Shown here in pieces: positions 1,761-39,466 of a stretch of DNA of 40,415 bases. Source of the stretch: Planctomycetaceae bacterium (GTDB lineage Bacteria > Planctomycetota > Planctomycetia > Planctomycetales > Planctomycetaceae); assembly GCA_021732415.1 (NCBI GenBank), contig JAKFVC010000150.1, positions 1-40,415 of the forward strand, read 5' to 3'. The translations under genes were made by a program, and so were the position numbers. Every line of letters starts with the position of its first letter. Positions within the stretch are counted from its first letter, which is position 1. The notes beneath the pieces are model-generated. The model searched no databases and was not told the DNA's origin. It was given only the letters and a program-made list of their open reading frames with translations.

Positions 1761-1930
1761 GTCTTAGTTCGTTACCACCTGAATTAAATGGCACTGCGGC
1801 AGAACGGCCCAGACTTTGCTGAGTTCACCCTGCCATTGAATACAAAAACCCCGTAGACAGCCACTTTGGCCTTCTACCGGGAGAGTCGCGCTCGCGGGAC
1901 CAGAATTATAGCAGCCACGGTCCGCATTCT

Positions 1931-2032
1931 GTAGCCTGACTCTCTGAGTCGGGTATCTTCACATTCCAAATACACCCGACTCGGAGAGCCAGGTAAAATC
2001 TCCAATGCACCCGACTCGGAGAGTCGGGCTAC
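1931..2032. repeat. Triple REP-like cluster (family A) between ettA and mnmG
   Basis: The 319-bp divergent gap 1761-2079 holds three family A units. The first, at 1931-1953, is GTAG followed by a near-perfect stem of CCTGACTC and GAGTCGGG around loop TCT. The second (1975-1993) is a degenerate inverse copy, and the third (2010-2032) is an intact inverse copy ending CTAC. Together they form a head-to-head palindromic cluster like a BIME. No protein-coding frame is supported here. Promoters of both flanking genes must lie around the cluster; I could not assign convincing -35/-10 pairs. Confidence 0.85.
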
Positions 2033-2079
2033 GGAACGCGCGAATTGCACTCCCTCCAGGCATGCCTTAAAATCTCCCC

Positions 2080-7797: not shown

Positions 7798-8937
7798 ATG
7801 GCAACACCCGTCGCGCAGGTCGTTAAGGTCAACTGGAAACTGGTGTTTCCCTGGCTGGCATTGTTTCGCGCGTTGGGATTAGCCCTCCATGTGCGGCAGA
7901 TTTTCGTAGGAATGATCGCGGTACTGCTGATTGCCGCGGGTGAGAACATCATTGGTGCAATTCCCCTGCCCCGAGGTTTGCCGGGAACGCCCTTCGATTC
8001 GTCGTTGGTTTCCTGGGTCCTGCTGCCGTGGGTCGATTTGATCTATCCGTTGCTCCCGAAATGGATGTTCTCCAATTCTGCCACTTTCAGCAGTCCGGGA
8101 TTAGATTGGTCGGATAAGCTGCGGATCCTGTTCCGCTTTACCTGGGTCTTTGTCATCGGGGGACTAGCGGGGGGAATCCTCGTTCGCCGCGCGGGGATGG
8201 AATTTGCCCGAGAGGAGAGCGTGGGCTTATTGAGCACGGTCCGGTTTGTGCTGAAACGGAGCGTCGATTATTTGAGCGCTCCCGCGTTGCCCCTGGGGGC
8301 TGTCGCTGCACTTTGGGTCCCGCTCTGGCTGTTGGGGTTCGTCGCCGAGGTGATATCCGCACCCGTGGGCCTGGGCTTGGGCGGTTATCTCTTGTTCGCC
8401 GTTTGGGGATTGGTACACGCCGTGGGGATCGTGATGGCCATCCTGTTGATCGCCGTTTTCCTCGGTTGGCCGATGATGATCGCCGCGGTCAGCATTAATG
8501 GCGGTGATGGCTTTGACGGTTTGAGTCGCGGTTTCGGATTCGTCCTCGATCGCTGGCGCTACTATGCCTGGTGCGTCTTACTGATGATTTTTTACGGAGG
8601 CCTGTCGCTGTGCCTGGTGATGATCGTCTTACGCGGTGGTGAATATCTCGCCCTTGCAGCATTGAGCTCGGGAGCCAGCGGTTGGTACACGCAGGGAACC
8701 GAAAGTCCCTGGCACATTCTCAAGAGCATTCTCGTCCGCGGCTTCGCTTACAGTTTCTTCTGGTCTTCCATGGCGATCATCTATCTGGTGCTGCGTCAGA
8801 GCGTCGACAACGCGGAACTGCACGACATCTATGTGGAGGGATCGCCCCAGGATTCCGATGGCCTGCAGAGCCTGATTAATCCATCGCTCCCAGATCCGCC
8901 GCCACCCACTTTGCTGCCGATTATCAATCAGCCGTGA
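7798..8937 (+). CDS. Polytopic membrane protein of unknown function
   Basis: A 379-residue, strongly hydrophobic protein that I do not recognise as a named family. About six membrane segments can be seen, near residues 34-54, 120-138, 160-182, 192-225, 256-276 and 312-332. The segments are broken by short loops with glycine-rich motifs (NGGDGFDGLSRGFGF then RWRYYAWC), a layout like other conserved planctomycete inner-membrane proteins. The C-terminal tail is Pro-rich and probably cytoplasmic. The ATG at 7798 lacks a strong Shine-Dalgarno. The gene ends 11 bp before a perfect 60-bp inverted repeat and converges on the TetR gene. No substrate or role can be assigned from sequence. Confidence 0.75.
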   Translation: MATPVAQVVKVNWKLVFPWLALFRALGLALHVRQIFVGMIAVLLIAAGENIIGAIPLPRGLPGTPFDSSLVSWVLLPWVDLIYPLLPKWMFSNSATFSSPGLDWSDKLRILFRFTWVFVIGGLAGGILVRRAGMEFAREESVGLLSTVRFVLKRSVDYLSAPALPLGAVAALWVPLWLLGFVAEVISAPVGLGLGGYLLFAVWGLVHAVGIVMAILLIAVFLGWPMMIAAVSINGGDGFDGLSRGFGFVLDRWRYYAWCVLLMIFYGGLSLCLVMIVLRGGEYLALAALSSGASGWYTQGTESPWHILKSILVRGFAYSFFWSSMAIIYLVLRQSVDNAELHDIYVEGSPQDSDGLQSLINPSLPDPPPPTLLPIINQP

Positions 8938-8948
8938 GATGGTATAGG

Positions 8949-9080
8949 CTGGGAGGGCGAGGCTCCCGCCGAGCCTAAGGCGAGCTTTAGCTCGGAGTCC
9001 GCCGGAGGCCGATGTGAATGCCTCCGGCGGACTCCGAGCTAAAGCTCGCCTTAGGCTCGGCGGGAGCCTCGCCCTCCCAG
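8949..9080. repeat. Perfect 60-bp inverted repeat (family F, long form)
   Basis: Arms 8949-9008 and 9021-9080 are exact reverse complements over 60 bp, with a 12-nt loop. The outer 26 bp carry the family F sequence (TGGGAGGG-GAGGCTCCCGCCGA), which recurs at 19240, 20651, 23321 and 25014. It fills almost the whole gap between two convergent genes and ends 2 bp before the TetR stop codon. RNA from either strand would fold into a very long hairpin, so it could end or protect both transcripts (inference). Confidence 0.95.
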
Positions 9081-9082
9081 GT

Positions 9083-9769
9083 CTATTCTGACGCGCCGGA
9101 CTCTGGGCAACCGCAATCCGACGGTCGGCAGATCTTCACCACGTGGCGTTCACGCTCGCTCAGAATTCCGCGGAACACGATCTCCAGCATCGACCGATGT
9201 TGCTCGTCCAAACTCACGGCGCGGCCGATGAAGTGGTTCGCGAACATCGTGCCGTAGAGCAAGTAGCCAACCGTGTCTAAGATGAGCTCCGCAGGCAGAT
9301 CTGAGCGGAGATGGCCCGATGCGATGAGGCTGCGATAGAGCTCGCGCCACACTCCGACATTCGCATCGCGGTATTCGAAGTAAGTCGGCCGCTTGCGATC
9401 TTTGAAGATTGCTCGCTCTTGAATGATCAGCTCGACGTATTGGGGGTGCTGATCGAAAAAGTTGAGGTACGCTCGAATTGCCAGGCTGATGCGGTCGAAC
9501 GGCCCATCGGCTGTGTTCGCCGCTTCCAGCACGGCCTGCTGCATCTGGGACATCCCGAGATCGACACAGGCAAAGAATAGATCCTGCTTGCCGGGGAAGT
9601 AAAGATAAACGGTCCCCTTGGCGACCCCAATCTCTGTTGCCACCCGTTCCATTTCACAAGCGTTGTAGCCGAGTTCGGCAAATAGCCTGGCCGCCGCCTC
9701 AATGATCGACAACCGGCGCAGATGGCGTCGCGCCGCTGCGGCATCATTCGGGGTGAATGGAATACTCAT
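9083..9769 (-). CDS. TetR/AcrR-family transcriptional repressor of the efflux locus
   Basis: A 228-residue one-component regulator. The N-terminal helix-turn-helix spans about residues 17-63 (IIEAAARLFAELGYNA, then VATEIGVAKGTVYLYFPGKQDLF), the canonical TetR DNA-binding fold. The C-terminal two thirds is an all-helical ligand/dimer domain, variable as usual. The gene diverges from the adaptor/RND operon, the typical arrangement for a local drug-responsive repressor. A matching palindromic operator is at 9980-9995. It ends in CxCGCPESGASE, where a Cys cluster (ICRPSDCGCPES) gives a small cysteine-rich tail; whether this binds metal is unknown. The inducing ligand is unknown. Confidence 0.92.
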   Translation of the reverse strand: MSIPFTPNDAAAARRHLRRLSIIEAAARLFAELGYNACEMERVATEIGVAKGTVYLYFPGKQDLFFACVDLGMSQMQQAVLEAANTADGPFDRISLAIRAYLNFFDQHPQYVELIIQERAIFKDRKRPTYFEYRDANVGVWRELYRSLIASGHLRSDLPAELILDTVGYLLYGTMFANHFIGRAVSLDEQHRSMLEIVFRGILSERERHVVKICRPSDCGCPESGASE

Positions 9770-11349: not shown

Positions 11350-11415
11350 ATAGCCCGACTCTCTGAGTCGGGTTTCCCCCGTCATAAACACTCCCGACTC
11401 AGAGAGTCGGGCTAC
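11350..11415. repeat. Head-to-head pair of family A REP-like units inside the efflux operon
   Basis: The unit at 11350-11372 (ATAG, stem CCCGACTC and GAGTCGGG, loop TCT) faces an inverse copy at 11393-11415 ending CTAC. The pair begins 1 bp after the adaptor stop codon and ends 32 bp before the pump start. A hairpin pair here could stabilise the upstream message or set unequal adaptor:pump output (inference). Confidence 0.85.
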
Positions 11416-19195: not shown

Positions 19196-19374
19196 GTAGC
19201 CTGACTCTCTGAGTCGGGTGGGATTCACATTGCGGTTGCTGGGAGGGTGAGGCTCCCGCCGAACCGCTTAGTCTGGCGAGGACCGATAGACGCTTGCGGT
19301 TCGGCAGGAGCCTCACCCTCCCATAAGCCTGTTCCGGCATTCGACGAAGAACCCGACTCGGAGAGTCGGGCTAC
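19196..19374. repeat. Nested palindromic element: family F inside a family A pair
   Basis: The outer pair is family A: 19196-19218 (GTAG, stem CCTGACTC and GAGTCGGG) and its inverse at 19352-19374. Inside lies a family F element, arms 19240-19266 and 19297-19323 (TGGGAGGGTGAGGCTCCC... and inverse), around a 30-nt core GTCTGGCGAGG...GATAGACGCTTG. The core is nearly identical to the core of the copy at 25014-25097. The unit fills the space between the redoxin gene start and the DUF1080 gene stop. Confidence 0.9.
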
Positions 19375-20650: not shown

Positions 20651-20834
20651 TGGGAGGGTGAGGCTCCCGCCGAACCGCGAATGTCTAATTGGCTCTCACC
20701 GTGCTTTCCAGGAAATTCATTAGAAAGAATCGCAGTGCATTCCCACATCGGAACGGCGAGGCTCCTTATCAAACCGTTTTCATCTAGGGAGGCCCGAATG
20801 ACGCTCGCGGTTCGGCGGGAGCCTCACCCTCCCA
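20651..20834. repeat. Family F inverted element with a long centre
   Basis: Arms 20651-20680 and 20805-20834 are exact 30-bp reverse complements (TGGGAGGGTGAGGCTCCCGC... and inverse). The 124-bp centre holds a decayed extra arm (GGAACGGCGAGGCTCC near 20750) and no coding frame. It occupies the first half of the 648-bp gap 20551-21198. The second half holds a -10 hexamer and a small hairpin, noted separately. Confidence 0.9.
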
Positions 20835-23037: not shown

Positions 23038-23124
23038 CTTCATCGGCTCATTATTGAGCGCGTTTCTGGCGACTGCCCCCCTCTGCTTGATGGTGTACCC
23101 GCCCATCCTTACGAAGAACGAAGA

Positions 23125-23241
23125 TTTTGGAACACTGATCTTCGCTAATCTACACTAATCAAGAACTTTCCATGTCGCAATTTCGCCATGATCGTATTCC
23201 GAATTGATCAGTGTTAATTAGCGTAGATCAGTGTTCCAAAA
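23125..23241. repeat. Inverted repeat of the GGAACACTGATC type (family J)
   Basis: Arms 23125-23162 and 23204-23241 (TTTTGGAACACTGATC... and inverse) pair over 38 bp with a few mismatches, around a 41-nt loop. The arms contain repeated ACTGATC/ACTAATC words. It lies in the 533-bp gap 23038-23570 between the kinase and DUF1501 genes. Nothing coding is supported in this gap. Confidence 0.8.
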
Positions 23242-23320
23242 ACTCCCTCCTGACTCATCCTTTTCTGCGAAATCTGTGGATTCAAATCCTCAATGACTAC
23301 CGGATTTCGTCCTTGATCCG

Positions 23321-23347
23321 CGGTTCGGCAGGAGCCTCACCCTCCCA
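23321..23347. repeat. Solo half of a family F element
   Basis: A single right arm (CGGTTCGGCAGGAGCC through CACCCTCCCA) identical to the right arms at 19297-19323 and 25071-25097. No left arm is present within several hundred bases upstream, so this is a truncated or decayed copy. Confidence 0.85.
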
Positions 23348-25013: not shown

Positions 25014-25097
25014 TGGGAGGGTGAGGCTCCCGCCGAACCAGGTAGTCTGGCGAGAGTCGATAGACGCTTGCGGTTCGGCAGGAGCCTCACCCTCCCA
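25014..25097. repeat. Family F inverted element (84 bp)
   Basis: Left arm 25014-25039 (TGGGAGGGTGAGGCTCCCGC...) and right arm 25071-25097 pair with few mismatches. The core GTCTGGCGAGA...CGATAGACGCTTG matches the core of the 19240-19323 copy. It lies between the DUF1501 terminator and the kinase stop codon (convergent genes). Confidence 0.92.
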
Positions 25098-32020: not shown

Positions 32021-32219
32021 AAGCCCCAGGAGGGGCGACCGCATAAGCCCGGGGCGGAAGCCCCGGGAATTGACCAAAAGAGAAAGTTTAAGCCCCGGCG
32101 GGGCGACCCAAAACCGTTTAGCACAGTTGTCGGTCGCCCCTCCGGGGCTAGGTTTTTCTCACGCGATCGGACCTGGGGCTTCCGCCCCAGGCTTTATGCG
32201 ATCGCCCCTTCCGGGGCTT
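32021..32219. repeat. Nested AGCCCC/GGGGCGACC palindrome (family H)
   Basis: Outer arms 32021-32067 and 32172-32219 pair over about 47 bp with scattered differences. Inside, a second pair of the same word (AAGCCCCGGCGGGGCGACC, 32090-32108, and its inverse at 32132-32149) makes a palindrome within a palindrome. It ends 11 bp before the stop codon of the NHL gene. With the family D pair it accounts for most of the 552-bp gap 31679-32230; no gene is supported there. Confidence 0.9.
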
Positions 32220-39401: not shown

Positions 39402-39466
39402 GTAGCCCGACTCTCTGAGTCGGGTGCATCAAACTTCAGGATACCCGACTCAGAGAGTCGGGCTAC
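39402..39466. repeat. Head-to-head family A REP-like pair between uppS and cdsA
   Basis: The unit at 39402-39424 (GTAG, CCCGACTC, TCT, GAGTCGGG) faces its inverse at 39444-39466. The inverse unit's GTAG (minus strand, 39466-39463) contains the TAG stop codon of uppS, so the repeat overlaps the gene end. Confidence 0.92.

Follow-up and report, generated by a model that had tools for sequence, protein, structure and literature searches.

Among the inverted repeats of the planctomycete DNA analysed here, a stretch of 40,415 nt referred to below as the window, one raises the question of how a long palindrome between two genes has come to be perfect. At 8949-9080, two 61-nt arms that are 100% complementary face each other across 10 nt, forming the longest, and also the longest perfect, of the 22 inverted repeats found in the window with arms of at least 16 nt lying no more than 300 nt apart; the next perfect one measures 24 nt. 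The first-pass annotation of the sequence had given the repeat this same span with arms of 60 bp and a loop of 12 nt, lengths that are corrected here, and its placement of the hairpin between convergent genes, 2 bp from a TetR stop codon, is borne out. The features of the locus are as follows.

7798-8937, plus strand: left neighbour, encoding a 379-aa protein with no Pfam match
8949-9009, plus strand: left arm, 61 nt, A-type by arm typing, one side of the perfect inverted repeat
8950-8975, plus strand: first outer REP-like unit, GGAG followed by a GGC-GA-GGC-TCCC-GCC-GA-GCC mini-hairpin (pattern match and covariation)
8981-8994, plus strand: A-type tip block CGAGCTTTAGCTCG of the left arm, within which a small hairpin is possible
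8995-9034: inner stem of 15 bp with the loop
9010-9019: loop, 10 nt, differing from copy to copy in an alignment with 83 other copies
9020-9080, minus strand: right arm, the exact reverse complement of the left arm, A-type
9035-9048, minus strand: second A-type tip block, where a B-type tip stands in nearly all typed copies
9054-9079, minus strand: second outer REP-like unit, inverted (pattern match)
9083-9769, minus strand: right neighbour, a TetR-family regulator (TetR_N, PF00440, E 1e-16)

The hairpin thus fills the space between the convergent ORFs 7798-8937 (+) and 9083-9769 (-), with its right arm ending 2 bp from the stop codon of the latter. The tetR gene is itself divergent from HlyD- and AcrB-type efflux genes, and the window carries planctomycete cytochrome-type domains. 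Identity between the arms ends at the element borders, beyond which the left and right flanks are unrelated, and nothing in plasmid and phage collections matched 8940-9090 at E 1e-3. The inverted repeat is a genuine sequence feature and an unusual member of a dispersed repeat family, where it had previously been regarded as a single hairpin.

This family is abundant in the window's own assembly (G000; 9.87 Mb in 350 contigs). When 231 bases spanning the site served as the query, 80 matches came from the 40 candidates scored out of 329, and the outer 26 nt of the element, TGGGAGGGYGAGGCTCCYGCCGARCC, has 580 matches at no more than 2 mismatches (289 forward, 291 reverse), against none for the reversed control. 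Within the window, the terminal 26-mer is matched nine times at no more than 3 mismatches and not once in 100 shuffles. The extracted pairs of outer units are mostly of two sizes, either 84 bp (the short form) or 127-133 bp (the long form, to which 8949-9080 belongs); other members in the window are listed here.

19240-19323: 84-bp short form of the GGAG family, nested in a GTAG-type repeat pair (19196-19374)
20651-20834: pair of outer units spanning 184 bp, the centre being enlarged (pattern match)
23322-23347, minus strand: single outer unit (pattern match)
25014-25097: 84-bp short form of the GGAG family

The outer unit was assessed for covariation in 259 units from 113 named loci, with up to 6 substitutions allowed. 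Its mini-hairpin, GGC-GA-GGC-TCCY-GCC-GA-GCC, displays two-sided changes at pair 8-23 (CG 226, TA 22), pair 11-20 (GC 234, AT 16) and pair 12-19 (GC 242, CG 8, AT 3), while the GA mismatch is retained in 248/259 units and the AG mismatch in 251/259; changes in an alternative GGGAG/CTCCC pairing are almost all one-sided. With covarying pairs and conserved mismatches together, the unit therefore reads as REP-like, and this imperfect hairpin looks like that of a REP bearing a GGAG tag at its foot. The whole element is a copy of a dispersed, non-coding inverted dimer of REP type, in which two 26-nt GGAG-tagged hairpin units stand face to face with inner arms.

A second family, tagged GTAG and built on a hairpin of the CCCGACTC-GAGTCGGG type, likewise occurs as inverted pairs in the window (1923-2040, 11351-11414, 19196-19374 and 39402-39466) and has the look of a canonical REP. 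Outside the GGAG family by sequence is a 48-nt inverted repeat at 23115-23251, 83% complementary and with 41 nt between its arms.

The arms of the long form are of two types, marked by a tip block in the middle of the stem that is mostly CGAGCTTTAGCTCGG in type A and mostly CGACCGCAGGTCGG in type B. Of 166 long forms recognized by pattern in the window's assembly, 159 are A/B (90 in one orientation and 69 in the other), two are A/A and five are B/B, and three genus mates (G001, G002 and G003) contain 3, 20 and 22 A/B elements by pattern with no A/A or B/B. The copy at 8949-9080 is one of the two A/A copies, and hence perfect. Arm read-out allowed 107 of the 166 to be typed as distinct long copies (100 A/B, 5 B/B, 2 A/A), the homodimers on contigs C230, C75, C142, C204 and C231 each having one or both arms not readable. 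In DNA folds, each of four A/B examples is a single long stem that opens into a bubble at the A/B block, with energies between -59.8 and -78.7 kcal/mol, whereas the window copy (-91.4 kcal/mol) and a B/B copy on contig C122 (-95.0 kcal/mol) form perfect stems. A/B is the normal state of the long form, which as a single-stranded hairpin is then bubbled in mid-stem. That a hairpin of this size persists had been thought notable, but long hairpins, with a bubble, are also formed by the four folded A/B members, and the size is common in the genome. The excess of A/B copies alone is no proof of selection because the spreading of whole A/B elements predicts the same excess, and selection as its sole cause is not claimed.

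What sets 8949-9080 apart is thus an A arm in a place normally held by a B arm. Three origins had been proposed for its perfection, namely recent origin, gene conversion between the arms, and selection; arm-to-arm copying is the best supported of these, given the A/B state usual in the family and the tip of a second element, C231:5269. Over the 55 nt compared, the window copy has two A arms without a single difference, a condition found in 109 of 4278 A-arm pairs (2.5%) among the 93 A arms extracted, the window's two included, and the arms of the B/B copy on C122 (C122:25834; L218) are identical too. In C231:5269 (L221), the same tip, CGATCACAGGTCGG, is found in both arms, while the outer arms differ (TAAGAC as opposed to TAACAC, with a different outer end). 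This tip accounts for 2 of the 110 B-tip occurrences in the fetched stretches, a total in which at least one element is counted twice, and both of the two are in C231:5269. A shared tip between unlike outer arms is therefore not explained by a simple foldback read; the element looks like the result of a partial arm copy, and suggests that one arm can be copied onto the other in this genome.

Ordinary copies may offer a less direct view of the same process. Both arms could be read in 82 A/B copies, of which 79 were used; their inner stem matches from arm to arm in 49/79, compared with a shuffled mean of 31.8 and with none of 5000 shuffles as high, and the outer spacer agrees weakly (16 vs 9.3 shuffled; p 0.016; n=79). 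The outer 26-mer agrees between arms no more than expected by chance (46/79 vs 47.7 shuffled). In an alignment of 83 A/B copies, made up of those with both outer units 115-145 bp apart and leaving aside L206, in which one tip is unclear, two-sided changes fill 55 cells vs 34.8 in shuffles, with two of the five covariation measures falling below the shuffles (pairs with two-sided changes, 4 vs 5.7; pair types, 14 vs 15.5). Pairs of the local hairpin hardly vary within the A/B set, and so carry no covariation signal for or against it. Agreement between the arms of ordinary copies could alternatively reflect subfamilies instead of copying.

Template switching between inverted repeats is known to homogenize their arms in yeast (PMC8604942, as given in the available part of that source), and a comparable event may explain the locus. 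The hairpin would extrude during replication or repair, and a template switch would copy the A arm over the B arm, presumably through a polymerase or other enzyme step, such that the long imperfect hairpin would become a perfect hairpin of 61 bp. The available portions of PMC8604942 and PMC8794818 describe, as would be the case here, a process that renders the arms of imperfect hairpins alike; there it concerns yeast genes and RNA hairpins, whereas the present proposal applies it to a bacterial repeat that is dispersed and has a fixed pattern of two arms. With moderate confidence, the perfection of 8949-9080 is attributed to such arm copying, in which a duplicate of the A arm took the place of the B arm, and the locus would then have arisen by a process like that suggested for C231:5269 and not by misassembly.

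Misassembly is nonetheless the main rival to arm copying, and a serious one. On this view the site would be that of an ordinary A/B element, or of two elements that differ, and its perfect right arm would stem from a foldback read or from the assembler linking two contigs through an A arm common to both, an explanation regarded as a distinct but less probable possibility. A likely precedent appears within the same assembly, where contig C75 (L217, B/B) repeats near its start, letter for letter, the final 126 nt of contig C45 (L312, A/B). The most plausible reading of the B/B element at the start of C75 is a foldback error at the A/B locus that ends C45, and strain variation could alternatively account for it. 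The second A/A copy, C230:21, also lies at a contig start, the assembly is in 350 contigs, and the right arm of the window copy matches two fetched copies exactly, one over 62 nt and the other over 60 nt, which suffices for a join by short k-mers. One or more of the seven homodimers among the 166 long forms are probably artefacts, and assemblies of such genomes can yield false perfect palindromes at contig ends. Yet 8949-9080 lies 9 kb inside its contig, and its arms halt at the element borders between unrelated flanks, where a foldback read would continue into the flank. Moreover, no second version of the locus is present among the 40 candidates scored, out of 329, in the assembly.

Gene order in related genomes bears on both misassembly and a third explanation. 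The gene for the 379-aa protein has a homologue that converges with a xylose isomerase-like TIM-barrel gene (PF01261) in G003 and G001 and is followed by a different gene again in G002; tetR, in turn, is convergent with a SpoU-methylase gene (PF00588, TrmL-like) in G002 and, with a DinB_2 gene (PF12867) between them, in G003. No unit, at 5 or fewer mismatches, occurs in the regions retrieved around these genes from G001-G003. A different inverted repeat, CCGTAGGATAGGCATCCTGCCTGTCC, was observed at 1360-1498 of the G003 stretch L267, between the genes for the 379-aa protein and the TIM-barrel protein, and represents another palindrome in the same gap. In the window's assembly, the TIM-barrel gene, an ordinary A/B element (between 13468 and 13645) and the SpoU-methylase gene adjoin on contig C114. 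These two junctions, in the window and on C114, resemble the paired outcomes of a single exchange with an element at each break; the elements may promote rearrangement, or else the assembler may have interchanged the two. That the window's neighbours lie apart in the three genus mates would allow a mis-join at the element, whereas the reciprocal junction on C114, with its ordinary A/B element, fits one real exchange unless both are reciprocal mis-joins.

If the exchange was real, two oppositely oriented A/B elements might have recombined and inverted the chromosome between them, leaving the window copy as the A+A product. The presence of an element at both junctions of the apparent reciprocal exchange is in keeping with such an origin, but a cross-over at the centre of two A/B elements predicts a B/B partner and the C114 junction is A/B, so that a simple inversion between two A/B elements is disfavoured as the source of the A/A copy. 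Given also that only 2.5% of A-arm pairs are identical, and that the matching regions fetched from the three genus mates are without the unit, recombination of this kind is improbable as the cause of the perfect repeat.

A functional explanation would hold that the hairpin is kept perfect by selection as a bidirectional transcript end, at which both convergent mRNAs would terminate or have their 3' ends shielded. The RNA of 8945-9085 indeed folds with great stability (-152.8 kcal/mol vs a shuffled mean of -66.6; z -18; 0/200 shuffles as low), its placement between convergent genes and 2 bp from one stop codon would suit such a role, and REPs are reported to lie mostly downstream of genes (PMC3733652, in its available part). 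However, no promoter or terminator consensus was found in 8700-9300, including an intrinsic terminator with a T-tract after the stem on either strand, the genus-mate stretches fetched hold no unit near these genes, and ordinary A/B copies would serve equally well. Selection for a transcript end is accordingly considered a very improbable reason for the perfection of this copy.

Arm copying, the preferred reading, leaves the means by which the family spreads as a separate matter. Direct repeats in the flanks of 88 copies, sought at lengths of 2-9 nt, are near the shuffled expectation (7 vs 5.0 at 2 nt, 3 vs 2.3 at 3 nt, 1 vs 0.2 at 4 nt, and none longer), and the target-site duplication expected of a MITE of a DDE transposon is not above chance in these copies. 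Flanks that prolong the palindrome by 4-9 nt are slightly more frequent than chance (e.g. 3 vs 0.5 at 6 nt). Over 88 ends, the bases before the unit include G at -2 in 48 and A at -1 in 51, with T in 59 and C in 49 on the other side; C stands at -4 in 31/88 ends, and GA is favoured before the T of the unit.

A RAYT gene beside the repeat was rejected, as none lies within about 1 kb of it in the window's assembly, in 29 Y1 loci of relatives (best matches) or in the 113 named loci. The unit occurs in 2 of the 13 Y1 loci of the window's assembly (about 1.5 kb searched on each side), more than 1 kb from the gene, and in 0/29 Y1 loci fetched from relatives as best matches. With 11 proteins of the window's assembly as queries, a Y1 match was found in 2 of the 113 named loci, 1.9 and 2.1 kb from the nearest unit. 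A parent element with the same ends was sought in the 113 named loci as well, where no neighbouring pair of units in plus-minus orientation lies 400-5000 bp apart.

As a separate observation, one long element in the window's assembly (L193, contig C202, element at 401-533) splits a GTAG-type palindrome precisely at its midpoint (GTAGCCTGACTCT / AGAGTCAGGCTAC), and no bases are duplicated there; this single case suggests that hairpin tips may be targets.

These features invite comparison with known repeat systems. As with the RAYT-associated, GTAG-tagged REPs and REPINs, the GGAG family consists of hundreds of short hairpin units with stem mismatches, in inverted pairs with the tags outside, and is without target duplication; unlike them, it bears a GGAG tag, and not GT[AG]G, before its covarying stem, and has no Y1 or RAYT gene within about 1 kb of a unit in the loci examined. 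The family appears to work like a REP-dimer or REPIN, but lacks two of the tested features that define RAYT-mobilised REPs, namely a GT[AG]G tag and a RAYT gene next to the repeat. By analogy, it may spread through single-stranded DNA intermediates, as thought for REPINs. According to the available part of PMC3733652, the CGTC-tagged REPs are also palindromic and dimer-forming with no dedicated transposase found; the GGAG family differs in having no CGTC tag and in arms that differ at one defined mid-stem block, by which homodimers are countable (7/166 by pattern). Class 3 TnpA-Y1 structures of Planctomycetes and Acidobacteria, described in the available part of PMC6006769 as high-copy hairpins with a CnGA foot, resemble the GGAG family in their copy number and in belonging to phyla that also carry the GGAG unit, but the class 3 motifs (NHVH and Y..EQ) were recognized by eye in 0/13 Y1 matches of the window's assembly, and none of the latter lies beside a unit.

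The distribution of the unit is broad and uneven. It is present in 32 of 99 relatives at no more than 2 mismatches, in a patchy manner, with 0 matches in the other 67, and reaches 291 matches in the genus mate G002 and 646 in a genome of the same family (G049). A pattern scan of public genomes produced at least 113 stretches, and the titles among the matches listed name 90 planctomycetes, 6 Armatimonadetes or Chthonomonas, 3 Acidobacteria, 3 Verrucomicrobia, 2 Zixibacteria, 2 Hydrogenedentota and 7 labelled plainly 'bacterium'. The window's own 26 letters, TGGGAGGGCGAGGCTCCCGCCGAGCC, recur in planctomycete, Armatimonadetes, Acidobacteria and Hydrogenedentota contigs among the matches listed, the taxa being given by label and nearly all of the contigs being metagenome-assembled, and, among these matches, the loci of Zixibacteria and Verrucomicrobia carry variants of TGGGAGGGCGAGGCTCCCGCCGAGCC. 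Of the 111 neighbouring unit pairs less than 300 bp apart in the 113 named loci, 80 are inverted with the tag outside, and at least 60 of these 80 measure 60-82 bp across. No earlier description of this GGAG-tagged unit was found in the REP literature searched, which comprised main texts, as distinct from supplements, and included the available part of PMC2817692, and a literature search with the string GCTCCCGCCGAGCC returned 0 papers.

A broader account of the family, doubtful as a whole and put forward tentatively, would join these strands. The family would be one of transposase-orphan REP dimers with a 26-nt core identical across several phyla, in which the A/B state is held since the mid-stem mismatch guards against hairpin nucleases, and in which arm copying keeps making perfect homodimers that are then removed. 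If true, 8949-9080 would be an intermediate caught in passing, and the family a natural assay of the degree of palindrome perfection that is tolerable. Heterodimers prevail in many CGTC REP families with no obvious explanation, and protection from SbcCD has been suggested (Di Nocera 2013; PMC3733652, in its available part). This idea gains a countable case in the 159 heterodimers and 7 homodimers of the window's assembly, with one block separating the arm types. A further question is posed by a core unit that is alike in contigs labelled as several phyla, with no transposase seen beside it.

Two minor observations concern the wider set of elements and the window itself. A variant of the outer end with inserted bases, ACCCTCTGGGTCCCTCGCCCTCCC, is common to three long elements of the assembly (C142:1329, C231:5269 and the one at the end of C45). 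No Rfam match at gathering score falls at 8949-9080, the sole such match in the window being the Acido-Lenti-1 RNA (RF01687) at 32172-32218, which scores 37.3 against a gathering score of 37 and beside which several inverted repeats are located at 32025-32194.
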